From Brucella pseudogrignonensis (GTDB lineage Bacteria; Pseudomonadota; Alphaproteobacteria; Rhizobiales; Rhizobiaceae): DNA of 64,000 bases. The notes under the pieces were generated by a model. That model was not told where the DNA came from and ran no database searches. It was given only the letters and a program-made list of their open reading frames with translations. The translations under genes and the position numbers were made by a program. Of the stretch, positions 23,882 through 38,822 are shown piece after piece. Every line of letters begins with the position of its first letter. The stretch's first letter is position 1. The DNA lies in contig NZ_NNRM01000039.1 in NCBI RefSeq assembly GCF_002252525.1, positions 1 through 64,000 of the forward strand, written 5' to 3'.

Positions 23882-24670
23882 TCACGTCGAGTTGAAGAAA
23901 ATAGTAATGACATCAGCAAACCTTTGCGGAGCCAAACGCGGAAAGAAGTGACCGCCCTGCATTTCTTGCATCTCAGAATGCACAATCAAACGACGCAGTT
24001 CTTCGATATGATGATATGGGATCATGATATCGTCACGCGCGCCAAGGAGAAGCGTGGGCTGGTTAATCGCGGCCAGCTCTTGCGACCGATCAAAATCAAG
24101 CAACATTGCAATGCGCTGCGCAGTCACCTTATATGGCGCAAGATAATGGGCGGCGCTCGTCACTGCCTCACGAAGTTCGAGTTCATGTGCGGCTATCCAA
24201 TCCGCCGTATAGCCAAACACATGTGTGAGGTTCTGATAGGCCGTCACCTCACCCTTCTGCATCATTTCCCAACGCGACAGGAAAAGCGCTCGAAAGCGCG
24301 CATCCGGACGTGCCCAACTTCCGCTTATCACCAGTGATCTGGCACGCTCAGGGGCATCAAGCGCGATGGTTTGTACGACCGTTCCCCCGGTGGAATGGCC
24401 AACCAGATGCGCGCCATCGATTTTTTCCGTGTCAAGAATAGTCAGCACATCGCTTGCAATCCGCTCGATAGAATAGCCGTTATCGGGGCGGTCGCTTCGC
24501 CCCGCCCCGCGATGATCAATTGTGATGATCTGAAACCCTTTGAGGGCCTTCTCGACACCAGCCCAGAAGCGGCCATCGCCCCCTAAACCCGGGATAAGAA
24601 CGATCGGTTGCCCCTCACCCTTCACCTCATAATACAGACGGCAGCCATCATCTGCCAGAGCGATCGACAT
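23882..24670 (-). CDS. Alpha/beta hydrolase
   Basis: A 262-residue cytoplasmic hydrolase of the PcaD-like branch. It shows PIVLIPGLGGDGRFWAGVEK (oxyanion loop), DHRGAGRSDRPDNGYSIE, nucleophile S93 in LVGHSTGGTVVQTIAL, an acid in LLLGARDDIMIP and a C-terminal His in MQGGHFFPR. It is the last gene of the ten-gene catabolic operon, 17 bases after the Ser/Cys racemase-family gene. It may open a lactone or lactam or hydrolyse an enol ester made upstream. PcaD (enol-lactonase) is the nearest well-known relative but the context gives no support for protocatechuate breakdown. Confidence 0.78.
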   Translation of the reverse strand: MSIALADDGCRLYYEVKGEGQPIVLIPGLGGDGRFWAGVEKALKGFQIITIDHRGAGRSDRPDNGYSIERIASDVLTILDTEKIDGAHLVGHSTGGTVVQTIALDAPERARSLVISGSWARPDARFRALFLSRWEMMQKGEVTAYQNLTHVFGYTADWIAAHELELREAVTSAAHYLAPYKVTAQRIAMLLDFDRSQELAAINQPTLLLGARDDIMIPYHHIEELRRLIVHSEMQEMQGGHFFPRLAPQRFADVITIFFNST

Positions 24671-24687: not shown

Positions 24688-25719
24688 TCAGTTGCCCGGC
24701 CAGGTATCGCCGAGGCGAAACCCAGTAGGAAACGGGTCTGTCGGGTCGAGCACATAATTATGAAAAGCGGTGATCCATGCCTGACCGGTGATCGCCGGAC
24801 AAATGGCCCCCTTCCCCCCACATGTGGTTTCCCCAAGCACGCGACCGATAAACTCAGTACCGATGATCGATTCATGGATGAATGTTTCACCAATGGCGAC
24901 TTGACCACGCGCATGCATTACCGCCAGCCGTGCACTTGTGCCAGTGCCACAAGGCGAGCGATCAATACGACCCGGCGAGACGATTACAGCATTGCGGGAG
25001 CGCTTGACACCATCGTGCTCTTCTAGAGGCCCTGCGAATAGCGTCTGGTTGATCGTGTGGATTTCCGGATTTTCCGGATGGATCGCCGGAAGCTGTTCAG
25101 CGGCGGCTTTTTTAATCCGCTCGCCGACCTCGACAAGCCGGGATGCTTCGGCCTTATCGATATTGAAGCCGATGGATGCCGCATCGACCAGCACATAAAT
25201 CATCCCGCCATAAGCGACATCAACCGTAATTGTCCCAAGCCCCGGCACTTCAACCTTTGCGTCCAGCGCAAAGACGAAGGATGGAACATTTTCAAATGTG
25301 ACGCTAATGCATTTCCCGTTCTCGCACTGCGCCGTCACCGGTACAACACCCGCCGGAGCTTCCAGAACCAGTTTTGTTTCTGGCTCCTTCATGGGGATCA
25401 TGCCAGTTTCAAGCAATGCTGTTACAGTGCAAATTGTATTGGTGCCAGACATTGGCACGTAAAAATCCGACTCCATAATAACAAAGCCAGCATCCGCTTC
25501 AGGCTTTGTGGCTGGCAGGACAAGGTTGACGCATTGCGTGACCCTACCCCGAGGTTCGTTGAGTAGAAAATTGCGCAGATCATCAGCCTTGCCTTCAAGA
25601 TATTGCATCTTTTCGAACATTGAAGCGCCTGGCACGTCGAGAACACCGCCAGTGATTACCTCGTTTAATTCACCGGCAGCATGAACGCCGACAACATTGA
25701 CCATCTTTGAAAAACGCAT
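24688..25719 (-). CDS. Proline racemase-family protein with Ser/Cys pair (3-hydroxyproline dehydratase-like)
   Basis: A 343-residue member of the proline racemase superfamily. The first catalytic position reads MSGTNTICTVT, so S91 replaces the usual Cys; the second is intact, C257 in DRSPCGTGTSARLAV. In this superfamily Cys/Cys enzymes racemise or epimerise, whereas replacement of the first Cys by Thr or Ser goes with dehydration of trans-3-hydroxy-L-proline. The known dehydratases mostly have Thr, so Ser here is worth testing. It lies three bases after the DHDPS-family gene. A second, Cys/Cys paralogue is encoded earlier in the same operon. Confidence 0.8.
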   Translation of the reverse strand: MRFSKMVNVVGVHAAGELNEVITGGVLDVPGASMFEKMQYLEGKADDLRNFLLNEPRGRVTQCVNLVLPATKPEADAGFVIMESDFYVPMSGTNTICTVTALLETGMIPMKEPETKLVLEAPAGVVPVTAQCENGKCISVTFENVPSFVFALDAKVEVPGLGTITVDVAYGGMIYVLVDAASIGFNIDKAEASRLVEVGERIKKAAAEQLPAIHPENPEIHTINQTLFAGPLEEHDGVKRSRNAVIVSPGRIDRSPCGTGTSARLAVMHARGQVAIGETFIHESIIGTEFIGRVLGETTCGGKGAICPAITGQAWITAFHNYVLDPTDPFPTGFRLGDTWPGN

Positions 25720-25722
25720 GAA

Positions 25723-26622
25723 TTAGCCCTTCAATGATGCGAGCTTGGCAATTGCGTCATTCACGACAGTTTCGACATGGACACGTTCCGCACCCAGCAG
25801 TGGCAGTCTCGGCGCGCGGACCCATTCCGGCGCACCATAGACGAGCTGTTCCGCAAGCTTGATGTACTGAACCAGCTTCACATGCGTATCGAGATGGAAC
25901 GCTGGCGTCAGCAAGCGATAGAGTGTGCGTGCCTCATCAAAATTGCCAGACGAAGCAAGGTTGAACAGCTTCACACATTCGGCAGGCCAGACATTGGTCA
26001 TCCCGGAAACCCAGCCCGTGACACCCAATGCCAGACTTTCAACGATAAGATCATCTACGCCACAGAACACTGAGAAACGGTCGCCACATGCATTGTATAG
26101 ATCAGTCACGCGACGGATGTCGCCACACTCTTCCTTGATACAGACAATCGAAGGAATTTCCTCCAACTGTTTAAGGATTTCCGGTGTTACATCCACACCA
26201 TAAGCAATGGGATTATTATAAATCATGATCGGCAAATCGCTGCTTGCAGCAAGCGATTTGTACCAGACCACGGTTTCCCGTGGGTCCGTCTTATAGGCAA
26301 GCGACGGGAAGGCCATGAGACCCTGAGCGCCAAGCTTTTCATAATGACGTGCTGCAGCACCTGCATCAGCCGTCGAAATCTGAGCGAGGCCAGAGAGCAG
26401 CGGAACACGCCCGGCGACAGCTTCTTTTGCTGCCAGAATAACCTGATCACGCTCTTCCGCGCTGAGCGATGCATTCTCACCCAGCATTGGCAGAACAATG
26501 ACGCCGGAAACGCCATTGGTGATCACACGATCTATTGAAGCAGCAGTTGCATCAAGATCAAGCGCACCATCTTGCTTGAGCTTTGTAGTAACTGCCGGAA
26601 ATACGCCTGTCCAACCCGTCAT
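25723..26622 (-). CDS. DHDPS-family aldolase/lyase
   Basis: A 299-residue class I aldolase-type TIM barrel of the dihydrodipicolinate synthase/N-acetylneuraminate lyase family. The Schiff-base lysine is in SIVCIKEECGDIRR, the catalytic Tyr in IMIYNNPIAYG, and LPMLGENASLSAEER is the substrate carboxylate site variant. Hydroxyproline degradation uses a family member that deaminates 1-pyrroline-4-hydroxy-2-carboxylate to alpha-ketoglutarate semialdehyde, and the neighbouring epimerase and oxidase genes make that the leading guess. GAGGGA precedes the start and the ATG overlaps the B12-protein stop. Lysine biosynthesis is unlikely given the context. Confidence 0.82.
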   Translation of the reverse strand: MTGWTGVFPAVTTKLKQDGALDLDATAASIDRVITNGVSGVIVLPMLGENASLSAEERDQVILAAKEAVAGRVPLLSGLAQISTADAGAAARHYEKLGAQGLMAFPSLAYKTDPRETVVWYKSLAASSDLPIMIYNNPIAYGVDVTPEILKQLEEIPSIVCIKEECGDIRRVTDLYNACGDRFSVFCGVDDLIVESLALGVTGWVSGMTNVWPAECVKLFNLASSGNFDEARTLYRLLTPAFHLDTHVKLVQYIKLAEQLVYGAPEWVRAPRLPLLGAERVHVETVVNDAIAKLASLKG

Positions 26623-28403
26623 GTTCTTGTTCCCTCATTTTTGGTGTTTATGAAATTCTCGATAAACTTCGTCATCGTTTCAGGCGTCTCGCAAGGCAAA
26701 GCACCCAGAGCCTCGATATCGGCTTTAACGTCCACCGGGAGCCCCGAATTGGAGTCTTCAGGTATCTCGTTGAGCCTTCCGCCAATCAGAACTGGCATAT
26801 CAGAACCAACCTCTTTGAGAGCTGCCAGCACATCACGCGCATAGCGCAGTGCAATGCCGTTATAAGTCGAAATGGCGATAAAATCCGCTTTCTCGGCAAG
26901 GGCTGTCGCAACTACGGCTTCGGGGTCCGCAGAGGTGCCTCCGTCAATGATGCCGATGGAACTCATGCCAAGAAGACGCTCAATCAGATTCTTGCCATGT
27001 TCATGCACATCGGATGAGGCAACGCATCCCCGTAAGCCGCTCTCAGCAATGGTGGTGCGTACGGCCTCAGGGACGCGTTTGATCCATTCATGTGCACTTT
27101 CTTCAAGCTCTTCGACCCACTCGGCCAGCATGACAGAACGACGACCACCCCAGGCTGTCGCATCTTCGTTACCTGCACCATAGAGGCTTTCCAACCGCTT
27201 CGGCCCGACACGACGCAAGGCAAGCATAAGCGCTGCCGCGTCGTTGATGTTGACGCCAGCTTCTTCAAGACCGGACAGAACATTCTGACTGAAACGCTGC
27301 CCGGCTTCCATCAGATCATCGGCAGCTTTATCCACCTGTGCCAGATCAATCAGTCTGGCGGTCGGGATCGCATGTTCAGCCATGCGGGTCGCAAAAGTCT
27401 GCGCATCGATGATTTCATCAATATCCGGTATGCGCTGATTTTCAGTCACAGGAACCGGATTGATTGCATGGCCTGTAGGAATCCGCGCCAAGGCCCAGAT
27501 ATCTGCCTGCAAATAGCTGGCAAGGCTTGCGAAATTGCCTGCAGGGCTTGATTTATAGCTCACAGTATTGCCGAAAAGCATGGTACCCGGCGCATCGCTA
27601 AATGTCGCCAGGGCCTTATGGAAAGCCATGCGTATCAAAGGTGCTGTATAATGGTGGCCAAAACAATGCGACATGCGTCCACCGATCAGATGCTCGACGA
27701 TATGACGCTCGATCAACACCATGCCAAGCGCTGAACTCATATCTGCAAACAGTCCGGCAAACCCGTCATCCAGATTGGAATGAACGAGCACCTCCTGATC
27801 CTGTGCGGCGATTAAACCAAGCGCTGTCACCGCGGCTTCTGTCGTCGAAACATCGTCATCCCAATAAGGCAGACGAAACGTAAAATACTGCCCCAGATTG
27901 CCAATGGCTGTGGCACCTGCTGCCAGCGCACCCTTTGTATTTTCAATGGCGCCTGGCAATCCAAGCATGAAATCACCAAAGTGCGCAGCAGCAGGCGCTG
28001 CATTGGTGATGCGGGCAAAATCCTCCGCTCCATTCAGAACGATGCCTGTTCCTTTCGGGCGATCCTTGCGCAAGGCAACCGGATAGCCCATCGACCAGTC
28101 AAGTGTAATCCCGAAACGATCGACCGTCACACCACGGCTGGCACAAGTGCCATGCACTTCGCCAATTGCGTCAACAGTGCGCTCAACGCTGCGAAAGCCG
28201 ATATGCGCATGCTGCATTATCTTGCCTTCAGCGGCCTTGCGTCGCTTATATTCAGCCTCGCTTGTTACGTTGTTTGTTTCGAGGAACACATTCCCGCCAA
28301 CACGCCAGTCGCGGGATAGCGCTTTGCCTTCAGCGATAAGATCAGCGCCCGGCTTCATACGTTCAGGGACAAGATCAACAAGAGCAGGCAAAACAGCTTT
28401 CAT
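26619..28403 (-). CDS. Cobalamin-binding-domain protein, probable B12-dependent mutase of unknown substrate
   Basis: A 594-residue protein. Residues near 465-470 read SSDVHEHGKNLIERLLG, containing the D-x-H-x-x-G motif whose His ligates cobalt in base-off B12 mutases. ADFIAISTYNGIALRYARD and MPVLIGGRLNE follow as the later Rossmann elements. The N-terminal 430 residues look like a TIM barrel, with NGAEDFARITNAAPAAAHFG, ATAIGNLGQYFTFRLPYW and SHCFGHHYTAPLIRMAFHKA; these suggest a glutamate mutase- or aminomutase-like barrel but I cannot match a named enzyme. The start at 28403 comes three bases after the NIPSNAP stop. It would catalyse a carbon-skeleton or amino-group shift in the pathway. The B12 assignment is strong, the reaction unknown. 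Confidence 0.72.
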   Translation of the reverse strand: MKAVLPALVDLVPERMKPGADLIAEGKALSRDWRVGGNVFLETNNVTSEAEYKRRKAAEGKIMQHAHIGFRSVERTVDAIGEVHGTCASRGVTVDRFGITLDWSMGYPVALRKDRPKGTGIVLNGAEDFARITNAAPAAAHFGDFMLGLPGAIENTKGALAAGATAIGNLGQYFTFRLPYWDDDVSTTEAAVTALGLIAAQDQEVLVHSNLDDGFAGLFADMSSALGMVLIERHIVEHLIGGRMSHCFGHHYTAPLIRMAFHKALATFSDAPGTMLFGNTVSYKSSPAGNFASLASYLQADIWALARIPTGHAINPVPVTENQRIPDIDEIIDAQTFATRMAEHAIPTARLIDLAQVDKAADDLMEAGQRFSQNVLSGLEEAGVNINDAAALMLALRRVGPKRLESLYGAGNEDATAWGGRRSVMLAEWVEELEESAHEWIKRVPEAVRTTIAESGLRGCVASSDVHEHGKNLIERLLGMSSIGIIDGGTSADPEAVVATALAEKADFIAISTYNGIALRYARDVLAALKEVGSDMPVLIGGRLNEIPEDSNSGLPVDVKADIEALGALPCETPETMTKFIENFINTKNEGTRT

Positions 28404-28726: not shown

Positions 28727-29728
28727 TCACTTTACCTGAAAGCCAAAGGCAAGCGGATCGCGCTCATCGACCAGTATCGTGTTGTAGCCTGTTACCCGCG
28801 CCCAACCACCAATGCTTGGCCGAATAGCAGGGCGACCGCCAACTTCCGCAGCGCTCTCCACGCGACCATGAAACAATGTTCCGATAATCGATTCATGAAC
28901 AAAATTCTCGCCATCTTTCAGCATGCCTTTAGCGACACGCTGCGCCATGCGCGCTGAAGTACCAGTTCCGCATGGCGAACGATCAATTGCTTTGTCCCCA
29001 TAAAACACCGCATTGCGTGCATCGGCTTCAGGGTGTTTTCCGTTATCCGCCCACATGACATGACTGACACCGGCAATGCGATCATCCTCGGGATGAACCG
29101 GAGCTACGGCTTCCTGCACCAGTTTACGCACCAGTGGGCTGATCTTGAGAATGTCGTCAGCGCTCATCGTATCGAGACCAGCCCAGTTCTTCTGTGGTTC
29201 GATGATGGCATAGAAGTTACCACCATAAGCAACATCGACCACCAGCTCGCCAATACCGGGCACATCGATCTTCGCTTCGCTGGCATGAAGATAGGCAGAG
29301 ACATTGAAAATGCGAACTTCGTCAACGAAACGACCATTGCGCCTGTATTCAACCTCGACCCGTCCCGCAGGAACTTCCAGGGCCAATTTACCCTCGGTCT
29401 TGGGGACAACAAACCCCTGTTCGAGCGCCACAGTGACCGTGCCAATTGTACCATGCCCGCACATCGGCAAACAGCCGGACACTTCGATAAACAAGACCCC
29501 AAGATCGCAATCGTCGCGTGATGGTGGATAAAGAACCGAGCCAGACATAACATCGTGTCCGCGTGGTTCAAACATCAGCGCTTGGCGCACCCAATCATGG
29601 TCACGCAGGAAGATCTGGCGTTTTTCAGCCATGCTGACATTCGGCAAAATAGGCGCACCACCACAGACCACACGGACTGGATTACCGCAGGTATGGGCAT
29701 CGACACAGATAAAGGTATGAGGATTCAT
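28727..29728 (-). CDS. 4-hydroxyproline 2-epimerase-like (proline racemase family, Cys/Cys)
   Basis: A 333-residue proline racemase-family enzyme with both catalytic thiols: C90 in LPMCGHGTIGTVTVALEQG and C253 in DRSPCGTGTSARMAQRVA. MCGHGTIG is the signature of hydroxyproline 2-epimerases, which convert trans-4-hydroxy-L-proline to cis-4-hydroxy-D-proline. Start at 29728 is supported by TGGAG eight bases before; a longer frame exists but lacks a ribosome site. It lies 13 bases after the flavoprotein gene, which would oxidise the D-isomer. A close relative with a different catalytic pair is encoded further down the operon. Confidence 0.87.
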   Translation of the reverse strand: MNPHTFICVDAHTCGNPVRVVCGGAPILPNVSMAEKRQIFLRDHDWVRQALMFEPRGHDVMSGSVLYPPSRDDCDLGVLFIEVSGCLPMCGHGTIGTVTVALEQGFVVPKTEGKLALEVPAGRVEVEYRRNGRFVDEVRIFNVSAYLHASEAKIDVPGIGELVVDVAYGGNFYAIIEPQKNWAGLDTMSADDILKISPLVRKLVQEAVAPVHPEDDRIAGVSHVMWADNGKHPEADARNAVFYGDKAIDRSPCGTGTSARMAQRVAKGMLKDGENFVHESIIGTLFHGRVESAAEVGGRPAIRPSIGGWARVTGYNTILVDERDPLAFGFQVK

Positions 29729-29741
29729 ATTGTGCTCCAGA

Positions 29742-30968
29742 TCAGGAAAACCGGCTGACGGTAAAAGGTGAAAGATCAATGGCGGGTTGCCTTCGGGCGA
29801 CGAGATCAGCAATAAGACGAGCGGTGGTTGGCCCGAGTGTCAGCCCCCCATGGCTATGACCATAGGCATGAATCACGTCCTTGCGTTGCGGCGAATGTCC
29901 GATCACTGGCAGACTGTCCGGTGTCGTCGGACGATGCCCCATCCAACGCGTTCCTTCATGCGCATTGAGATCAGGCAGATAAATGCGCGCCAACTTGGCG
30001 AGTGCATCGCTACGCGCATAATTGGGGGGAGTGTCGAGGCCAGCAAACTCGGCAGCGCCGCCAATACGCAATCCCATATCCATCGGTGTGGCCACGAACT
30101 TACGTTCAGCGAAAATAACTTCACGCGTAAGCGAAACGCCAGAATCGGGAATTGTCACATTATAGCCGCGTTCGCTTTCGAGCAGCACACGATCACCAAT
30201 CGTCTTCGCAAGACGTGCTGACCATGCGCCGGCCGCGATGATCAAATGATCAAAGTCAATCGCTTTGCCATCAGCCAAACGCAATCGCTTGCCGTCCACT
30301 GCAAGCGCTTCGCCGGTTACAAGCTTTGCACCCCGCCGGACAACAAGCGTCCGCAAGCGATCGACGAGACGTTTGGGATCATCAAAATGCGACCATTGCG
30401 GTGTCATTGCTGCACGAAGAACCGCCTTTCCAAGAGCTGGTTCCAACCTGCGCGCTTCATCGCCGTCCATCTCATCAAAAACAATACCGTAGCGGCGTCT
30501 GAGATCACGATCTGCTGCATCTGCTTTAAAGGCTGCTTCAGTCTCATAGACCCACAAAGCACCAACCTGATGCAGTTCATGGGTGAGTTTCAGCTCCTCC
30601 AGCAACGGCAGGTAATCATCGTAAACGGGTGCTGTGAGTGCTGCGAGAGCCTCGGTAATCCGTAACATTTTCGATTGTGAGCCACTGCGCATGAAACGCG
30701 CAAGCCAAGGCACAAGTTTTGGGAAATGTGCAGGATGCACCGAAAGAGGACCGAGCGGATCACACAACCAGCCTGGCAGTTTCCAGACAAGGCCCGGCAC
30801 GCTCGCGGGTACGATTTCGGTAACGCCCAGACCGCCCGCATTGCCAAAAGATGCTTTGTCACCCGCTGGATCGCGGTCAACGATCGTGACACTGTGCCCG
30901 TCAGCGATCAAAGCACGCGCTGCGCTCAGTCCTATTATTCCTGCACCTGCAATGACAACATTGCTCAT
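29742..30968 (-). CDS. D-amino acid oxidase/dehydrogenase-like flavoprotein (D-hydroxyproline oxidase candidate)
   Basis: A 408-residue DadA-like FAD enzyme. VVIAGAGIIGLSAARALIAD is the dinucleotide-binding motif, ASFGNAGGLGVTEIVPASVP follows as in D-amino acid dehydrogenases, and HAYGHSHGGLTLGPTTARLI closes the FAD site. Paired with a hydroxyproline 2-epimerase it most likely oxidises cis-4-hydroxy-D-proline to a pyrroline, feeding the DHDPS-family lyase. It lies between the aspartate dehydrogenase-like gene (19-base gap) and the epimerase. Broader D-amino acid use is possible. Confidence 0.83.
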   Translation of the reverse strand: MSNVVIAGAGIIGLSAARALIADGHSVTIVDRDPAGDKASFGNAGGLGVTEIVPASVPGLVWKLPGWLCDPLGPLSVHPAHFPKLVPWLARFMRSGSQSKMLRITEALAALTAPVYDDYLPLLEELKLTHELHQVGALWVYETEAAFKADAADRDLRRRYGIVFDEMDGDEARRLEPALGKAVLRAAMTPQWSHFDDPKRLVDRLRTLVVRRGAKLVTGEALAVDGKRLRLADGKAIDFDHLIIAAGAWSARLAKTIGDRVLLESERGYNVTIPDSGVSLTREVIFAERKFVATPMDMGLRIGGAAEFAGLDTPPNYARSDALAKLARIYLPDLNAHEGTRWMGHRPTTPDSLPVIGHSPQRKDVIHAYGHSHGGLTLGPTTARLIADLVARRQPAIDLSPFTVSRFS

Positions 30969-30987: not shown

Positions 30988-31794
30988 TCACGCCGGAGCT
31001 AATCGCTCGGCAAAATAACGTGTGGCTTCGATCAAGAGGCTGGCGGCAGTGATTGCCGAGGTCTTTGGATTGTCCGGCGAAGGCAGGTTGGCGAACCGCA
31101 TGAAGGCTTCGCCAAATGAACTTCGTGCTTCAATTTCATGCGTATTGAACAAAACCGCCGGGTCTGCCACAACCCTGACTGCCGTGCGCGCCACACCTGC
31201 AGCCAGTGCAATCGTCAAGCCGGCATTCAGATTACGCGGATAGAGCTCTGCTGCGCGCAATGCATCGCCTTCATAAAGTAGGACGGCTTCGCTTAGTTTC
31301 TGCGGGTCAAACCCAAGGCTCTCTAGTTCAGCCACCCAAGCAGAGACCGGCTTTCGCGACGTATAAACAACGCTGAGATCTTCAGCCTGAGCGACAACAT
31401 GAAGGTAATCAAGACCACCGACAGCACCTGTCGGGAAGATTAACCGAGCACCGCTTTTCTGACCTGCTTCCGCCGCTCTTTGTTCGAAATCGGCGTCGCC
31501 AATGACACCAACAGAGGCCGCAATCACATCAATTCCCGCTTCTAAGAAAACCGGGCAGAATGCTTTTAACGCATCCTGTCCGGCGGCCTCGATAACAACA
31601 GAAGGTTCTGACGCCAAAAGCGCATTCACGTCGTTGAAAAACCGGACGCCTGACTGTTCCGGTGCTGATGGGCCGTCGCGCAACAGCACACCGATCTGGC
31701 AACGGTAGGTTAGAAGCTTGCTACAAAGAGCCCTTCCGATGGCGCCGAAACCAAGTAGTGCTATGTTTGGAACGGGAACGGTGAATATCGTCAT
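30988..31794 (-). CDS. L-aspartate dehydrogenase-family protein
   Basis: A 268-residue protein of the aspartate dehydrogenase family (DUF108). It has a Rossmann N-terminus (NIALLGFGAIGRALCSKLLT), VVIEAAGQDALKAF, IDVIAASVGVIGD and the signature FPTGAVGGLDYLH. The C-terminal catalytic part holds YPRNLNAGLTIALAAGVA, with the Asn and neighbours typical of the family. Such enzymes make or use L-aspartate with NAD(P)H. In this operon it could aminate or deaminate an acidic intermediate downstream of the B12 protein. Six bases separate it from the SDR gene. Confidence 0.83.
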   Translation of the reverse strand: MTIFTVPVPNIALLGFGAIGRALCSKLLTYRCQIGVLLRDGPSAPEQSGVRFFNDVNALLASEPSVVIEAAGQDALKAFCPVFLEAGIDVIAASVGVIGDADFEQRAAEAGQKSGARLIFPTGAVGGLDYLHVVAQAEDLSVVYTSRKPVSAWVAELESLGFDPQKLSEAVLLYEGDALRAAELYPRNLNAGLTIALAAGVARTAVRVVADPAVLFNTHEIEARSSFGEAFMRFANLPSPDNPKTSAITAASLLIEATRYFAERLAPA

Positions 31795-31799
31795 AGCGC

Positions 31800-32552
31800 T
31801 TACCAGGCCGACATGCCGCCATCAACGGTGAACATAGCCCCCGTTGCAAAGGACGCTTCATCCGATGCTAGCCACAAAATGCAGTTTGCGATTTCTTGTG
31901 GTTCTGCCCAACGATTGATCGGAGAACGGGCTTTCAATGCATTTTTGAAGCCATCGGGATCAGGCGTTGTTTCGACCATTTTCTCGAAATAGCTCGACCA
32001 AGTGACACCCGGTGCCACACAGTTTACGCGAATTTTTTCCTTGGCATGATCCAGCGCCATAGCCTTGGTAAGAGCTGCGACACCGCCCTTCGAGGCCACA
32101 TAGGCTGCGCGATCAAAGATGCCGACAGTTGCAACATTGGAGGCGGTGTTGACGATTGTGCCACCGCCTTGTGCTGCCATTACCGGGATGGCGTGTTTAC
32201 AGCAAAGATAAACGCCCTTGAGATTGACAGCCATCAATGCGTCCCAATCGTCTTCATCTGTATTCACGACGGTCCCGGGGATACCATATCCGGCATTGTT
32301 GGCCAGAATATCGAGCCGCCCAAATTTGCGGACCGCAGTATCGATCATCGCCTTCACCTCGTCGGAGCGGGAAACATCAACGGTAAAGGCAAGTGCTGCA
32401 TCACCGAGTTCAGCGGCAACCGCCGAAGCCTTTTGCCCGTCACGATCAGCGACAATGACCTTTGCCCCTTCGCGAACGAAAATTTGAGCGGCAGCCTTGC
32501 CAATACCCGCACCGGCACCGGTGATGATGGCGATTTTGTCTTTCAGACGCAT
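31800..32552 (-). CDS. Short-chain dehydrogenase/reductase
   Basis: A 250-residue classical SDR. The cofactor motif is IAIITGAGAGIGKAAAQIFV, then LANNAGYGIPG, catalytic Ser in IVNTASNVATVG, the YxxxK pair in AAYVASKGGVAALTKAMALD and VNCVAPGVTWSSYF. VIVADRDGQKA places Asp after the second strand, which favours NAD over NADP. Start at 32552 is chosen because GAGGA lies just before it. It is the second gene of the operon after the cupin and would oxidise a hydroxyl group on a pathway intermediate. Confidence 0.87.
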   Translation of the reverse strand: MRLKDKIAIITGAGAGIGKAAAQIFVREGAKVIVADRDGQKASAVAAELGDAALAFTVDVSRSDEVKAMIDTAVRKFGRLDILANNAGYGIPGTVVNTDEDDWDALMAVNLKGVYLCCKHAIPVMAAQGGGTIVNTASNVATVGIFDRAAYVASKGGVAALTKAMALDHAKEKIRVNCVAPGVTWSSYFEKMVETTPDPDGFKNALKARSPINRWAEPQEIANCILWLASDEASFATGAMFTVDGGMSAW

Positions 32553-32653: not shown

Positions 32654-33190
32654 TTAGACCTTGTAAGGATCGGATGGCGGAGCCGCAAAAACGGTATCGC
32701 GCTCAATCTGCAACACATTCTCAGGCCGCGGGAACGGCGCTGGTGCAGGCTCCCCCTTCAAACGGTCACGTCCGATCAGGCGGAAGAAATCCTCCAAACC
32801 ATTTGGCACTATCAGCCAGGTCCAAACAATATCGGTCTCGCCTTCATTGATGAACATATGACGACGGTTCTTGCCGATGAAAAATGCGGAGCCCGGGTTC
32901 ATTGCATGACTCTCACCATCAATCACGGCACGCCCGTTGCCGGACACGACGAAGATGACTTCCTCATTCTGATCGTGGGCATGTTCACGGACATAGCCAC
33001 CCGGCGGAACAGTCTGCGTTCCAAAACCAATCGGGTGCTCCATCGGAACGCGATGCGGGGCGAAAATAACATCGATTGAACCATTCGCAGGCACTGGCTG
33101 CCAGTAGCTTTCCGCTGAACCCGGCTGAACGATAAGCACGTCCCCGCAAGGACCCTCTCCAGCGACGGCGCGTGTGTCTTTATTGATCAT
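32654..33190 (-). CDS. Cupin-domain protein
   Basis: A 178-residue single-domain cupin. The first cupin motif is GYVREHAHDQNEEVIFVVSG with HxH and Glu metal ligands, and the second is PGSAFFIGKNRRHMFINEGE with the third His. Start at 33190 has GGGGA six bases upstream. It is the first gene of the ten-gene operon, directly divergent from the GntR regulator. Small cupins of this sort act as isomerases, dioxygenases or ligand sensors, so no reaction is assigned. Confidence 0.8.
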   Translation of the reverse strand: MINKDTRAVAGEGPCGDVLIVQPGSAESYWQPVPANGSIDVIFAPHRVPMEHPIGFGTQTVPPGGYVREHAHDQNEEVIFVVSGNGRAVIDGESHAMNPGSAFFIGKNRRHMFINEGETDIVWTWLIVPNGLEDFFRLIGRDRLKGEPAPAPFPRPENVLQIERDTVFAAPPSDPYKV

Positions 33191-33375: not shown

Positions 33376-34053
33376 ATGACAAAAAAGATCGGGAGACAAT
33401 CCCTCACTGACCAAATCGTGGTGGAGCTGCGCCGCAGAATTATTGCTGGCGAACTCGCGGAGGGGACTCCCCTACGCCAGGAAGCATTGGCGATCGAGCT
33501 CGGAGTTTCGCGTATTCCCATTCGCGAAGCCATCCGACAGCTGGAGGCAGAAGGCTTTGTCCAGTCTGAACTGCACAAGGGAACCGTCGTTAAAGCCCTG
33601 TCACTGGCGGAGATTCAGGAACTTTTTGACATCCGAATTCATCTCGAAACATGGCTGTTCGAAATGGCGATACCGCGTCTTTCCGAAGCCGATTTACGTC
33701 GTGCAGAACAGTTGACTGACGAAACGCTCACGGAAGGCAACGTTGAAAACTGGGGTGACTTGAACTGGCAATTTCATGAAACGCTTTATGCGCCGAGCGG
33801 TCGCACGGTCGCACTGAAGCTGCTCAAAAGCGTCCACGATAATGCCAACCGTTATATCAACCTTCAAATCGCAGTCGCCCAGGACGTCGAGCTCGAACTC
33901 TCCGACCATCGCGCCATTCTGGCTTATGCGAAGCTGAAAGACGCCGAACGAGCGGTCGAAACATTGCGCAAGCATATCCAGCGCGTTGCCAACAATCTTA
34001 TGAAATCCTTGATCGAAAGCAGATCAGATCAACGGGAACAGCAAACCGCTTAA
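33376..34053 (+). CDS. GntR-family (FCD type) transcriptional regulator
   Basis: A 225-residue regulator. The winged helix reads LTDQIVVELRRRIIAGELAE, GTPLRQEALAIELGVSRIPI and REAIRQLEAEGFVQSELHKG. The C-terminal all-helical FCD domain has the metal/ligand positions in the region of LFDIRIHLETWLFEMAIPRL, NWQFHETLYAPSGR and LSDHRAILAYAKLKDAERAV. Start at 33376 follows GGAG by six bases. It stands between the ten-gene operon and the liv-type transporter, so it probably controls both in response to a carboxylic or amino acid ligand. Confidence 0.88.
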   Translation: MTKKIGRQSLTDQIVVELRRRIIAGELAEGTPLRQEALAIELGVSRIPIREAIRQLEAEGFVQSELHKGTVVKALSLAEIQELFDIRIHLETWLFEMAIPRLSEADLRRAEQLTDETLTEGNVENWGDLNWQFHETLYAPSGRTVALKLLKSVHDNANRYINLQIAVAQDVELELSDHRAILAYAKLKDAERAVETLRKHIQRVANNLMKSLIESRSDQREQQTA

Positions 34054-34158
34054 GGCAATTGCCCGAAAGCAAAAAGGCGTCGGCGGATGACGGTCAATCC
34101 GCAAAAATAAAAATAATACCGGCCCATGAAGGCTAGAAAAAAACAAAAGAGGGTTACG

Positions 34159-35271
34159 ATGAAAGCTTATAGAAAGTTTCTCGCAGCGTCGATCGCCGTT
34201 GCGGGTCTGACGAGTGCTGCCCATGCGGATATCATCATCGGCGCAGCCGGTCCGTTAACCAATGCCGAGTCAATCTTCGGCGTGACTTGGATGAACGGCA
34301 TGGAAATCGCCGTGCGTCAGGTGAATGACGCGGGTGGGATCAATGGTGAAAAGGTCGTCCTGCAGCGCGACGACGATAATGGCGACCCAAAGCAAGGCAC
34401 ACTGATTGCACAAAAACATTGCGACAATGCCGCAATGCTTGGTGTGGTTGCAAATTTCAATAGCGGTGTGACCATTCCGTCGTCCGATGTCTACCATCGC
34501 TGCGACCTTCCACAGGTGACCAATGCTTCGAACCCGAAAGTCACGCAATCGGGTTACAAGAATCTCTTCCGCCCGATCGCCAACGACCTTTCTCAAGGCT
34601 CGGCCCCTGCTGACTATGCAATCAACACACTGAAAGCCAAATCAGCCGCCATCATCCATGACAAACAGGCATTTGGTCAGGGGGTTGCCGAAGTATTCCG
34701 CGACACATTCACAAAAGACGGCGGCAATGTAACCTCCTTCTCAGGTGTTACACAGACCGACGTTGATTTCTCTGCTCTACTCACCAGCATTCGCTCAGAA
34801 AATCCAGATGTCATCTATTTTGGTGGCGTGATGCCTGCCGTTGGCCTGTTCGTCAAACAAGCACGCGAATTTGGCATCAAGTCGACTATTTTTGGTGCAG
34901 ATTCCGCGTTCTCTTCTGATTTCATCAATGGCGCTGGCGCTGAGAATGCCGAAGGTGCGATCGTTTCGTTCCAGGCTCCTCCTTACGACTCATCACCCGA
35001 ACTCGAAGCCTTCGCGAAATCCTATCGGGATGCTTTCGGTGAAGACGCAGGACCATACTCAGCCTATGGCTTTGTTGAAGCGTCAGTGATCCTGGAAGCC
35101 ATGAAGAAGCTGCCCGCGCCGCTAACACGCAAGGCAATTGCAGAAGAAATCGCGAAAACCGATCTTAAAACCATGGTTGGAACCGTATCCTTCAAACCAG
35201 ATGGTGAACTCACCAACCCTTTCATCTTCCTGTACAAGGTTGATGGCGGCAAATTCGCCCTCGTGAAGTAA
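34159..35271 (+). CDS. livK: Branched-chain amino acid-type ABC substrate-binding protein
   Basis: A 370-residue periplasmic binding protein of the LivK family. The signal peptide is MKAYRKFLAASIAVAGLTSA ending at AHAD. The mature protein starts IIIGAAGPLTNAESIFGVTW and has VRQVNDAGGINGEKVVLQRD, as usual for the type I fold. AGAGGG lies before the start at 34159. Many LivK relatives bind compounds other than branched amino acids; given the adjacent operon, a proline-, betaine- or hydroxyamino acid-like ligand is likely. The symbol is used at family level. Confidence 0.87.
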   Translation: MKAYRKFLAASIAVAGLTSAAHADIIIGAAGPLTNAESIFGVTWMNGMEIAVRQVNDAGGINGEKVVLQRDDDNGDPKQGTLIAQKHCDNAAMLGVVANFNSGVTIPSSDVYHRCDLPQVTNASNPKVTQSGYKNLFRPIANDLSQGSAPADYAINTLKAKSAAIIHDKQAFGQGVAEVFRDTFTKDGGNVTSFSGVTQTDVDFSALLTSIRSENPDVIYFGGVMPAVGLFVKQAREFGIKSTIFGADSAFSSDFINGAGAENAEGAIVSFQAPPYDSSPELEAFAKSYRDAFGEDAGPYSAYGFVEASVILEAMKKLPAPLTRKAIAEEIAKTDLKTMVGTVSFKPDGELTNPFIFLYKVDGGKFALVK

Positions 35272-35410
35272 CGCTGATCTGGCGCAAACAAGCCTCTCGC
35301 GGCAGCTGGAGGCTTGCTGTCCCAACTTGGAAACGGTGCGCTTGGATCCCCTGGAGCATAGCTGTGCTGTGCTTCTTCCTAAGCGCTCCTCGGCAATCGA
35401 GGCTTCACAG

Positions 35411-36352
35411 ATGTCTTCTTTCCTTCTTCAGCAGACTGTCAATGCGCTGACAGTCGGATCAATCTATGCCCTCATCGCGCTGGGCTACACGATGGTTTAC
35501 GGGGTCTTACGCTTGATCAATTTCGCGCATAGCGAAATGTTCATGTCAGGCGCATTCGTCGCTGTCTTTCTCAGTGGTTCGCTAGGGATTTCCGGTTTCC
35601 CAGGTGCAGCCGTCATTGTGGGCATTCTCGCCTTCGTCGTCATCGGCATTCTGGGCATGTCAATTGAAGTCGCAGCATATAGACCGTTGCGCAATAAATC
35701 GCGCCTCGCCCCAATGCTTTCAGCGCTTGGCATGGCTATTATTATTCAAAATGTCGTCATGCTTATCGCAGGGCGTCGTCCGATAATCTATCCGTCAATG
35801 CTACCAAGCGGTGTGGTCGAAATCGGCGGCATCATCATTACATGGAAACAGATTACGATCCTTGCAATCGCACTTATCCTGATGGTTGCACTGGAATTGT
35901 TTGTCAATCGCAGCCGTATGGGTATCCGCATTCGAGCGGTTGCGGAAAATGCCAACACCGCTTCGCTCATCGGTATCAATCCGAATATTCCGATCTCGGT
36001 GATCTTCTTTATCGGACCGGGCCTCGGTGCCGTCGCAGGTCTTCTTTATGCGTCATATTACGGTGTTGCGACCTTCACAATGGGCTTTGTGATCGGCATG
36101 AAAGCCTTCACCGCAGCCATTCTCGGCGGCATCGGCTCTATTCCCGGAGCAATGCTAGGCGGCATCTTGCTTGGCTTCATTGAAACCTTCGCAACAGCTC
36201 TTTTACCCGGTCTGACCGGTGGCGTCATCGGCACGGAATATCGTGATATTTTCGCCTTCTCCGTTCTTGTTCTCATCCTTCTGTTCCGTCCGTCCGGATT
36301 ACTGGGCGCCAAGGTCAGTGAAGAAACGATGGTGTACAAAAGTGATTTCTAA
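35411..36352 (+). CDS. livH: ABC permease, LivH type
   Basis: A 313-residue inner-membrane permease. It opens QQTVNALTVGSIYALIALGY then TMVYGVLRLINFAHSEMFMS, the standard LivH N-terminus. The coupling region around RSRMGIRIRAVAENANTASL contacts the ATPases, and AFTAAILGGIGSIPGAMLGG is the conserved late membrane segment. Start at 35411 is taken because GAGG is upstream and a longer reading adds non-conserved residues. Its 3' end overlaps the next permease by 11 bases. Confidence 0.88.
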   Translation: MSSFLLQQTVNALTVGSIYALIALGYTMVYGVLRLINFAHSEMFMSGAFVAVFLSGSLGISGFPGAAVIVGILAFVVIGILGMSIEVAAYRPLRNKSRLAPMLSALGMAIIIQNVVMLIAGRRPIIYPSMLPSGVVEIGGIIITWKQITILAIALILMVALELFVNRSRMGIRIRAVAENANTASLIGINPNIPISVIFFIGPGLGAVAGLLYASYYGVATFTMGFVIGMKAFTAAILGGIGSIPGAMLGGILLGFIETFATALLPGLTGGVIGTEYRDIFAFSVLVLILLFRPSGLLGAKVSEETMVYKSDF

Positions 36353-37355
36353 AGCCCCTCCCAAAAGCGCAGATAGCGCTCCCGTACCAACAAGCAACGC
36401 CTGGGGGCGAACCCTGTTATTGCTTGCAATAATCCCCCTCGCACTCATCCTTCTGGGGGAGTTCCTGCCGACCTATCCGTTGCGCGTGCTTGACACGATC
36501 CTTCTCTACGCCGTTCTGGCAATGGGTCTGAACATCGTTGTGGGTTATGCTGGACTACTGGATCTCGGTTACGTCGCCTTTTACGCAATTGGCGCCTATA
36601 CCTATGCGCTTTTGGCCTCCGATCAGTTGGGGCTACACCTGCCCTTTCCAATTATTTTGGTCATTGGTGCAGTTCTGGCAGGTATCGCTGGCATCCTCCT
36701 TGGTATCCCCGTGCTACGACTGCGTGGCGACTATTTGGCGATTGTCACCCTTGGCTTCGGTGAAATCATTCGCGTTCTCATGAATAATCTGAACTGGTTG
36801 ACAAACGGACCACAGGGAATCGCACGTATCGACGAGCCGAAACTTCTTGGCTGGACGATCTCATCCCCACTCGATTTCCTCTATCTGCTTATCGGCCTGT
36901 TGATCATCACCTTCCTTTTTGTTTGGAAGTTGCAGCAGAGCGCACTTGGTATTGCTTTGTCAGCAGTCCGTGAGGATCAGGACGCCGCCCGTGGCTGCGG
37001 TATCAACACAACGAAGGTCAAGCTTGTAGCCTTTGCAACCAGTGCGGTGATCGGAGGAATCTGCGGCGTTGTCTTCGCATCCATGCAACGTTTCGTCAGC
37101 CCTGAAAGCTTTACTTTCTGGGAGTCTCTCACCATTGTTCTCGTGTTGGTGGTCGGCGGCCTCGGCAATCCATTCGGCGCAATCCTCGGCGCAGCCATCC
37201 TGGTGCTAATTCCCGAACTCATGCGTGACTATGCGGACTATCGGCAACTCGTGTTCGGCATCGCGCTCGTCTGTGTTATCCTGCTACGACCTATGGGCAT
37301 TATAAGCCGCCAATATGGTCCGTCATGGCTCGCCGCAAAACTGGGAGGGCGTTGA
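36342..37355 (+). CDS. livM: ABC permease, LivM type
   Basis: A LivM permease of about 337 residues. LLYAVLAMGLNIVVGYAGLL and DLGYVAFYAIGAYTYALLA are hallmark LivM segments, with RLRGDYLAIVTLGFGEIIRV and FASMQRFVSPESFTFWESLT further on. The start is probably GTG at 36342, overlapping livH by 11 bases; upstream in-frame codons read livH sequence in another frame and are not conserved. The stop shares its A with the livG ATG (TGATG). Confidence 0.85.
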   Translation: MISKAPPKSADSAPVPTSNAWGRTLLLLAIIPLALILLGEFLPTYPLRVLDTILLYAVLAMGLNIVVGYAGLLDLGYVAFYAIGAYTYALLASDQLGLHLPFPIILVIGAVLAGIAGILLGIPVLRLRGDYLAIVTLGFGEIIRVLMNNLNWLTNGPQGIARIDEPKLLGWTISSPLDFLYLLIGLLIITFLFVWKLQQSALGIALSAVREDQDAARGCGINTTKVKLVAFATSAVIGGICGVVFASMQRFVSPESFTFWESLTIVLVLVVGGLGNPFGAILGAAILVLIPELMRDYADYRQLVFGIALVCVILLRPMGIISRQYGPSWLAAKLGGR

Positions 37356-38188
37356 TGCTAACTTTCGAACATGTCACCAAAGCCTTCGGGGCACATAAGG
37401 CGGTCGATGATGCTTCGCTTTCCATGAAGCCAGGGAAAATCACCTCGATAATCGGCCCGAATGGTGCGGGTAAATCAACGCTGGTTAATATGGCAGCAGG
37501 GTCCTATCAAGTGACGTCAGGACGGATCGTTCTTAACGGTGTCGAATTACAAAGGCTTCCAAAACACGCAGTTGCCCATGCAGGACTGGGTCGGACATAC
37601 CAGAATATCCGTCTTTTCGATGGAATGACCGTCATGCAGAACCTGGAAGTAGCCCTTGTTCCCCCTACTATTTCGGCGCTGATCGCAGATGCCCTTCCGG
37701 GAAGGAGTGCCGAAACGCATCGACGGGAAAAGTGCCACGCCATCCTAAAAAAACTTGGCATTTCGCATCATGCGCAAAGGCTTGCCGGATCGCTCGCCTA
37801 TGGGCAGCAAAAGCTTGTCGAACTTGCCCGTGCGATGGTCAATGATCCGCATGCCATCCTCCTGGATGAACCTGCCGCAGGACTTAATCACGGCGAAACA
37901 GAAGAACTCAAGCATCACATTGTCGACCTGAAATCGGGCGACATCGCCGTCGTGCTCATTGAGCATGACATGAAACTCATCATGTCCATATCGGATGAAA
38001 TCTATGTGATGAACCGCGGTAGTGTTCTGGCGCATGGGTCGCCCGTCGACATCCGTAACAATCAGCAAGTTCAGGAGGCTTATCTTGGCCAGCCAGGTGC
38101 AATCAGTGACATCGAAACCGCTGCTCGCAATCGAGCAAATCGAGTCCGGTTACGGTCGGGTGAAAGTCTTGCATGGCATCAATCTTGA
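37355..38188 (+). CDS. livG: ABC ATP-binding protein, LivG type
   Basis: A 277-residue ATPase. Walker A is [13 protein letters not shown], the Q-loop region has GLGRTYQNIRLFDGMTVMQN, the signature is LAYGQQKLVELARAM and Walker B is AILLDEPAAGLNHGETEEL. GGGAGGG precedes the ATG. The C-terminal tail (about 34 residues beyond YLGQPG) is read through the start of livF, giving an unusually long 104-base overlap. The tail resembles no family segment and may be an accident of gene overlap. Confidence 0.88.
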   Translation: MLTFEHVTKAFGAHKAVDDASLSMKPGKITSIIGPNGAGKSTLVNMAAGSYQVTSGRIVLNGVELQRLPKHAVAHAGLGRTYQNIRLFDGMTVMQNLEVALVPPTISALIADALPGRSAETHRREKCHAILKKLGISHHAQRLAGSLAYGQQKLVELARAMVNDPHAILLDEPAAGLNHGETEELKHHIVDLKSGDIAVVLIEHDMKLIMSISDEIYVMNRGSVLAHGSPVDIRNNQQVQEAYLGQPGAISDIETAARNRANRVRLRSGESLAWHQS

Positions 38189-38822
38189 GCTCTATGCAGG
38201 AGAAATCGTTTCGCTGATTGGTCCGAATGGGGCTGGCAAAAGCACGCTTCTACGCTCAATTAGCGGCGTTTGTCCGATCACCTCTGGGCAAATCAGCTTC
38301 AAAAGCGAGCGTATCGACCGGATGAAGCCTTATCAGATCGCGAAACGCGGCCTTGGCCATTGTCCAGAGGGGCGCGCGGTCTTCCAGCACCTCACCATCG
38401 AAGAGAACCTGATGGCGGGCTTTTTGGAAGAGCGCGGCAAGACCGAAGCTGAATTGTTTGACCATGTCTATACGTTGTTTCCAGTGCTCGCGGAGCGCCG
38501 TAAAAGTCAAGCTGGTCGATTGTCCGGTGGGCAACAGCAGATGGTGGCCATTGCAAGATCGATGATGGGCAACCCAGAATTGTTACTTCTGGATGAACCA
38601 TCACTGGGGTTAGCACCGATCATCATTCACCAGATCTTTGAGATTATTATCAAGCTGGCTGAGGCAGGGGTATCGATTGTTCTAGTCGAACAAAACGTGG
38701 ATCTCTCTCTCGAAATTGCCGATTATGTCTATGCCTTCGAGCATGGTCAGATCCACGTATCTGGTCCTGCCGAAAGACTGGCAGGAGACTCCCGCGTTCG
38801 GGAAATTTACTTGCCGGCATAA
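38085..38822 (+). CDS. livF: ABC ATP-binding protein, LivF type
   Basis: A 245-residue ATPase. Walker A is [36 protein letters not shown] is the LivF signature, [16 protein letters not shown] and [20 protein letters not shown] follow. No ATG fits the family start. The best initiation codon is TTG at 38085, because AGGAGG lies exactly six bases before it inside livG; GTG codons at 38097 and 38106 are alternatives. It completes the five-gene transporter. I see no terminator after its stop. Confidence 0.85.

Follow-up and report, generated by a model that had tools for sequence, protein, structure and literature searches.

We analyzed a 64,000-nucleotide stretch of the genome of Brucella pseudogrignonensis (contig NZ_NNRM01000039.1, positions 1 to 64,000; hereafter the window), in which the gene for a B12-binding, mutase-like protein lies within a run of ten minus-strand genes. 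This run encodes, in order, a cupin, a short-chain dehydrogenase (SDR), an aspartate-dehydrogenase-like (AspDH-like) enzyme, a D-amino-acid dehydrogenase (DAO), a 4-hydroxyproline 2-epimerase (HypE), a NIPSNAP protein, the mutase-like protein, a DHDPS-family lyase, a second proline-racemase-family enzyme and an alpha/beta hydrolase, and genes for a GntR-type regulator and an ABC transporter are oriented opposite to it (Table 1). The mutase-like reading frame is uninterrupted from its ATG at 28403. Translational linkage to both neighbors, noted in a first-pass annotation made from the DNA letters, was evident: the stop codon (TAG) of the NIPSNAP gene sits 2 nt ahead of that ATG, and the ATG of the DHDPS-family gene at 26622 overlaps the mutase stop codon (TGA). 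The neighbors named there as AspDH, SDR, D-amino-acid dehydrogenase and 4-hydroxyproline epimerase were also as described.

The B12-binding domain

The cobalt-ligand motif of DxHxxG type expected in the C-terminal region was found as DVHEHG, and profile searches placed the domain around it inside the B12-binding superfamily. PF02310 matched residues 462-544, scoring 42.1 bits (cut-off 32.1, E = 8.8e-11), and no other Pfam family was matched in the protein at E up to 1. All 12 NCBIfam families matched (methionine synthase, corrinoid proteins and mutases) were found via this stretch and under their cut-offs. The 12 PDB sequence matches likewise all cover the B12 domain, the top one being 2yxb, labelled a B12-dependent mutase (E = 2.3e-7).

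Residue conservation was assessed in a set of 103 rows (98 distinct), consisting of the window protein, 22 loci from genome searches and 80 loci from a species-wide contig scan. D465, H467 and G470 do not vary in any of the 102 rows that cover them, nor do S512, G541 and G542, of the Ser and GG motifs, in the 101 rows that cover those. A chance occurrence of the motif is therefore excluded, by these invariant residues and by the whole-domain Pfam match, and the protein belongs to the B12-binding superfamily. Two smaller alignments were used besides: A1, with 20 rows, is without L012 and L015 (real relatives), L002 (the B12 domain of another protein) and the near-copies L016, L017 and L019, and A3 holds the window protein and 22 species-scan loci less than 82% alike among themselves. 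A corrinoid adenosyltransferase is encoded in the same genome. An Rfam scan of the 64-kb window gave no match at the gathering threshold, and hence no cobalamin riboswitch there.

Table 1. Features of the window discussed in the text; locus counts refer to the best 80 loci of the species scan.
Feature	Coordinates	Strand	Evidence
Alpha/beta hydrolase, RutD/PcaD-like under those cut-offs, last of the run	23882..24670	-	PF00561; relatives in 40 of 80 loci
Second proline-racemase-superfamily enzyme, t3Hyp-dehydratase-like, below cut-off	24688..25719	-	PF05544; NF047722 439 bits, cut-off 550
DHDPS-family Schiff-base lyase	25723..26622	-	PF00701, E = 1.7e-52
B12 mutase-like enzyme, 594 aa plus stop	26619..28403	-	Open reading frame, PF02310, predicted fold
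C-terminal Rossmann B12-binding domain, residues ~455-590	26634..27041	-
DVHEHG cobalt-ligand motif, residues 465-470, H467	26994..27011	-	Sequence, conservation
N-terminal barrel domain, residues 1-436, predicted glutamate-mutase-E-like fold	27096..28403	-
E321, proposed counterpart of glutamate mutase Glu330	27441..27443	-	103 of 103 rows; weak hhalign runs
NIPSNAP gene, 104 aa	28406..28720	-	PF07978, E = 3.1e-25; sequence
4-hydroxyproline 2-epimerase (HypE)	28727..29728	-	NF010578 578 bits, cut-off 376
D-amino-acid dehydrogenase (DAO family)	29742..30968	-	PF01266
Aspartate-dehydrogenase-like enzyme	30988..31794	-	PF01958, PF03447; 2dc1 match
Short-chain dehydrogenase (SDR)	31800..32552	-	PF13561
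Cupin	32654..33190	-	PF07883
Divergent regulator, GntR-type by sequence (not scanned against Pfam)	33376..34053	+	Open reading frame; relatives in 15 of 80 loci
ABC transporter genes (binding protein, permeases, ATPases)	34126..38822	+	Open reading frames; relatives annotated livK/livH/livM in L113

Predicted fold and conserved residues

The barrel-like character proposed for the N-terminal region was seen in both predicted structures (mean pLDDT 90.8 and 92.1). Residues 1-440 match no Pfam or NCBIfam family, in agreement with the earlier remark that no named mutase was recognized in the sequence, and the Pfam barrel family of the acyl-CoA mutases (MCM, ICM) was unmatched at E up to 1. Structural alignments of the models placed glutamate mutase E (GlmE) closest, with the GlmE barrel fold present at 9% identity, and gave a lower Z (~20) for the methylmalonyl-CoA mutase family. 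The closest solved folds are mutases, and the models support an adenosylcobalamin-mutase fold, nearest to glutamate mutase E. Methyltransferase barrels other than that of methionine synthase are absent from the 50 matches listed, which is not evidence against such barrels. Matches of adrenodoxin to residues 190-239 (E = 0.004 and weaker) were regarded as chance.

In the 103-row set, D102, D144, N169, Q172, D212, D213, E232, E321, R324 and E330 are identical wherever covered (E321 in 103 of 103 rows), H65, H141, H208 and H312 are each 99% conserved, and R177 and R324 are among the invariant arginines. Comparison by hhalign with 13 glutamate mutase E sequences gave a weak though colinear alignment (E = 0.033, probability 1.5%), in which E321 is paired with E330 of glutamate mutase under three local settings; a shallower run (E = 0.12, probability 0.5%) again put E321 opposite this residue. 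Passages of two reports describe E330 of glutamate mutase and E338 of ornithine aminomutase as touching the adenosyl ribose and favoring Co-C cleavage (PMC4413051, PMC3958899). The same weak local alignment (E = 0.033), again under all three local settings, pairs H67, H141 and I99 with R66, R149 and R100 of glutamate mutase, which are described in part of another report as an arginine claw gripping glutamate (PMC9545868). This pattern suggests that the radical machinery has been retained and the substrate site altered, a view held with moderate confidence because the GlmE sequence alignment is weak. Other invariant arginines, for example R177 and R324, could bind carboxylates.

Distribution and gene partners of the family

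Relatives at E up to 1e-10 were found in 12 of the 289 genomes of the class, 10 of 60 related genomes and 7 of 35 within the genus, the own genome being counted each time. A scan of 84,980 species returned 230 relatives, and all locus counts given here refer to the best 80 of these 230. Their titles all name alphaproteobacterial groups (Brucella/Ochrobactrum, Ancylobacter, Bosea, Mesorhizobium, Rhizobium, Shinella, Rhodobacteraceae and others), except L079 (Proteobacteria bacterium) and L101 (a gammaproteobacterial metagenome-assembled genome). When 398 genomes of the phylum were searched with a profile (E 1e-30), 4 matched, the own genome included. Among 72,556 plasmid records, 9 match, 8 of them over at least 80% of the protein, and the product names seen were "hypothetical protein", "cobalamin-dependent protein", DUF1349 (a partial match) or none. 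Horizontal transfer is suggested for Acetobacter garciniae, as its mutase copy is 76% identical and its adjoining DHDPS gene 85% identical. The genus includes a genome (G296) with two copies, 91% and 62% identical to that of the window, the latter in an operon with E1/E2 genes; set side by side, these copies could show which chemistry is common to both and which genes serve to supply the substrate. Distant relatives of 32-33% identity (L015 in G261, L026 in G327) coexist with true members in the same genomes and are possibly a second enzyme of the same fold. Among the matches listed from the open-licence literature (titles and the starts of abstracts), no description of the family or its setting was found. 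The fold of the protein is a known one, and it is the sequence, the architecture, the aligned active-site positions and the gene partners that mark it as an unassigned branch.

Full flanks were nearly complete in 61 of the 80 loci, so that counts of gene partners are lower bounds. At more than 38% identity and 50% coverage, an AspDH-like gene occurs in 46 loci, a cupin in 46 (both together in 45), an alpha/beta hydrolase in 40 and NIPSNAP in 33. A pyrroline-5-carboxylate-reductase-like (P5CR-like) gene is present in 51 loci at E 1e-10 and 60% coverage, or 48 at the limits used for the other genes. It lies within 1.5 kb of the mutase in 23 loci (divergent from upstream in 14; downstream in the others, co-directional in 6 and convergent in 3), and is found in none of the 15 loci carrying HypE and DAO. 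Altogether, 70 of the 80 loci have an AspDH-like or a P5CR-like gene. The AspDH-like enzyme of the window matches L-aspartate dehydrogenase 2dc1 (E = 2.4e-31; under NCBIfam cut-offs), and the P5CR-like partner in L114 is related to pyrroline-5-carboxylate reductases (2ahr, E = 2.4e-11). Since aspartate dehydrogenases and pyrroline-5-carboxylate reductases both work on C-N bonds, the mutase probably yields an amino or imino acid.

In many loci of Rhizobiaceae and Mesorhizobium there are, in addition, E1/E2 genes for a complex resembling acetoin or pyruvate dehydrogenase (E1-beta in 29 of 80 loci), together with 3-hydroxyacyl-CoA-dehydrogenase-like and ketosteroid-dehydrogenase-like genes. In a quick tree of 99 rows, from which L106 (<480 aa), L001 and L016-L018 were excluded, a set of 23 rows with support 100 stands apart from these E1/E2 rows and comprises 16 rows of hydroxyproline type (15 loci and the window), 6 cupin-AspDH rows and 1 other. 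A separate 19-row set (support 99) includes L096, L097, L100, L101 and L102, each of which has a P5CR-like gene directly downstream (29-40% identity). Because these five loci have the gene at that place, the pairing with a P5CR-like gene probably came first; the tree is rooted only at its midpoint.

A family of ~289 aa occurs in 30 of 80 loci and is regular in rhizobial mutase operons (e.g., L113, 18207-19064); the member scanned (L070) had no Pfam or NCBIfam match. Mutase copies also lie near dimethylglycine-dehydrogenase-like genes (L091, L093), DUF3483/CCG and ETF genes (L084), and P450-ferredoxin or PhyH genes (L065, L069, L098), and these neighbors may indicate N-methylated or hydroxylated substrates.

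The hydroxyproline-type setting assigned to the operon at first pass was upheld in part. HypE, DAO and DHDPS-family genes are present here and recur elsewhere (DAO in 16 of 80 loci, the second racemase-family gene in 16, HypE in 15, DHDPS in 13), with HypE and DAO jointly in 15 loci, all within the 23-row set that holds the window; most other loci, however, have a P5CR-like gene instead. Single or other hydroxyproline-type genes occur in L029, L071 and L103. Phyllobacterium zundukense has the mutase and a P5CR-like gene in the vicinity of genes annotated as proline racemase family, aldehyde dehydrogenase, FAD oxidoreductase and dapA, and the gene set of L071 is similar. Hydroxyproline catabolism was rejected as a general role, 62 of 80 loci being without any relative of this type at the limits used: the mutase keeps company with hydroxyproline-type genes repeatedly, though not as a rule.

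The known trans-4-hydroxyproline operon, as described in passages of PMC4113996, has HypE, DAO, DHDPS and aldehyde dehydrogenase genes, the last completing the route, and neither B12 nor cobalamin occurs in the main text of that paper. The window operon shares the first three and differs in adding the B12 enzyme, AspDH-like enzyme, cupin, SDR, hydrolase and NIPSNAP, and no aldehyde dehydrogenase (alpha-ketoglutarate-semialdehyde type) was found among its 10 genes scanned, from the cupin to the hydrolase. A second 4-hydroxyproline epimerase in the same genome (L132, G000:C3:180217-181206) scores higher than that of the window, at 628 bits, and adjoins a D-amino-acid-dehydrogenase-like gene and Liv-type ABC transporter genes. 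For this reason, the window operon need not be the ordinary hydroxyproline route of the genome. The ABC transporter of the window is of the branched-chain amino acid type, judged by annotated relatives. The second racemase-superfamily enzyme of the window has a Ser/Cys pair (MSGTNTIC, SPCGTGTSAR), and the name trans-3-hydroxyproline dehydratase is not certified for it by its score (439 bits, cut-off 550); one Ser/Cys member of the superfamily is a 4-hydroxyproline epimerase (PMC4113996, in part).

A proposed reaction and its alternatives

We favor, at somewhat better than even odds, the view that the protein is a single-chain, pyridoxal phosphate (PLP)-independent, adenosylcobalamin-dependent carbon-skeleton mutase of the glutamate-mutase fold class. 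That it is an adenosylcobalamin mutase at all is very probable, and that it is of carbon-skeleton type is probable; an amino or imino acid is the substrate that we would expect, with a little less assurance. The cofactor form, role of E321, chemistry, order of steps and substrate that we infer are as follows. A predicted GlmE-like barrel and a GlmS-like B12 domain are fused in one chain, and His467 would be the lower cobalt ligand. Substrate binding would close the B12 domain onto the barrel, where E321 would touch the adenosyl ribose and aid breakage of the Co-C bond, and the adenosyl radical would then abstract hydrogen from the substrate, a small amino acid or imino acid, which would undergo a 1,2-rearrangement. 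The amine product would be oxidized by an NAD(P)-linked dehydrogenase, AspDH-like here and P5CR-like in many other clades. In the window operon, the substrate might come from a (hydroxy)proline-like imino acid via the epimerase, D-amino-acid dehydrogenase and Schiff-base lyase, although a hydroxyproline-derived substrate is only a tentative proposal. More tentative still is an undescribed reaction in which the mutase rearranges a proline-derived or other cyclic imino or amino acid, with related operons carrying out the same chemistry on other substrates.

Several observations weigh against this interpretation. Structural comparison with known mutases, as suggested at first pass, gave the adenosylcobalamin-mutase fold with GlmE closest in structural alignment, but whole-chain Foldseek puts methylmalonyl-CoA mutases on top (2xiq_B, E = 1.9e-13) and GlmE at rank 22 (E = 4.8e-9), so that kinship to GlmE over those enzymes rests on the barrel. 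Two forced-global hhalign runs (E = 0.93) pair no key residue with GlmE, and with so weak a sequence alignment the residue pairs are provisional. Mutases and corrinoid methyl carriers are not told apart by the B12 domain, and cobalamin binding and activity are predictions only. Ten of the 80 loci are without either dehydrogenase-like gene (some contigs being short), the B. pseudogrignonensis genome is without a specific P5CR-like protein (best match 28%), and no one substrate suits every gene context.

One alternative is a true glutamate mutase in fused form, converting glutamate to 3-methylaspartate, which the AspDH-like enzyme would oxidize. Glutamate mutase E is the best structural alignment and an AspDH-like partner would fit such a product, but in glutamate mutase (GlmE/MutE and GlmS/MutS, PF06368) the E and S subunits are separate, whereas the window enzyme is one chain. 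PF06368 is unmatched in the protein (E up to 1) and in its genome (0), the arginine claw is not at the aligned places in the weak alignment, and no methylaspartate ammonia-lyase was matched among the 10 operon genes scanned. A member of the present family and a PF06368 protein coexist in one alphaproteobacterium (G028). We consider this alternative improbable. The first-pass annotation also allowed for rearrangement of an amino group, which would make the protein a PLP- and B12-dependent aminomutase. The position 11 residues after H467, which we take to be the spacing of the PLP lysine (no aminomutase sequence was aligned), is Leu in 89% of rows. Lysine 5,6- and ornithine 4,5-aminomutase bind PLP through a lysine in their B12 domain (PMC3958899, in part), but no B12-domain lysine is invariant in the 103-row set (best column K471, 85% Lys), and amino-group migration is therefore disfavored, although slightly less so than glutamate mutase activity.

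That the protein is a radical enzyme of the same fold but not a mutase, for example an adenosylcobalamin eliminase acting as a dehydratase or ammonia-lyase, is about as unlikely as an aminomutase: the fold does not reveal the reaction and the aligned active-site positions are unlike glutamate mutase, but the nearest solved folds are those of mutases. A corrinoid methyltransferase demethylating N-methylated amino acids or betaines would suit the matches of the B12 domain to MetH and Mta/Mtb corrinoid proteins and the dimethylglycine-dehydrogenase-like, DUF3483/CCG and ETF, or PhyH genes at some loci; we give it the same low probability as glutamate mutase.

Turning again to a carbon-skeleton mutase, a new adenosylcobalamin reaction in this family is plausible. 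To our knowledge, few reaction types are known for adenosylcobalamin mutases. This scattered family of plant- and soil-associated Alphaproteobacteria could add one and reveal cobalamin-dependent amino-acid catabolism in aerobes, and its dehydrogenase-like partners offer a concrete route to the substrate. A proline-derived substrate, if true, would give hydroxyproline-type catabolism a B12-dependent step.

Other known systems share parts of the architecture. The methylmalonyl-CoA mutase family resembles the window enzyme in being a single chain with a barrel followed by a C-terminal B12 domain; it differs in its lower Z, in the missing Pfam match and in that no CoA-ester gene was found among the operon genes scanned. 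2-Methyleneglutarate mutase of Clostridium barkeri is likewise a single chain of ~600 aa with a C-terminal B12 domain. A survey from 2009 predicted, in the passages concerned, a family with B12 domain and barrel beside octopine/nopaline dehydrogenase, a CH-NH dehydrogenase (PMC2667541). By this description it is a parallel only: that family is from Clostridia, Lactobacillales, Chloroflexi and Thermotogae and has an N-terminal B12-like part, whereas the B12 domain of the window enzyme is C-terminal. Two proteobacterial PF06368 proteins (L108, L109) have open frames of 648 and 877 codons, exceeding the length of glutamate mutase E, and L108 starts with a stretch that by eye is like a B12 domain, perhaps a fusion in the opposite order.
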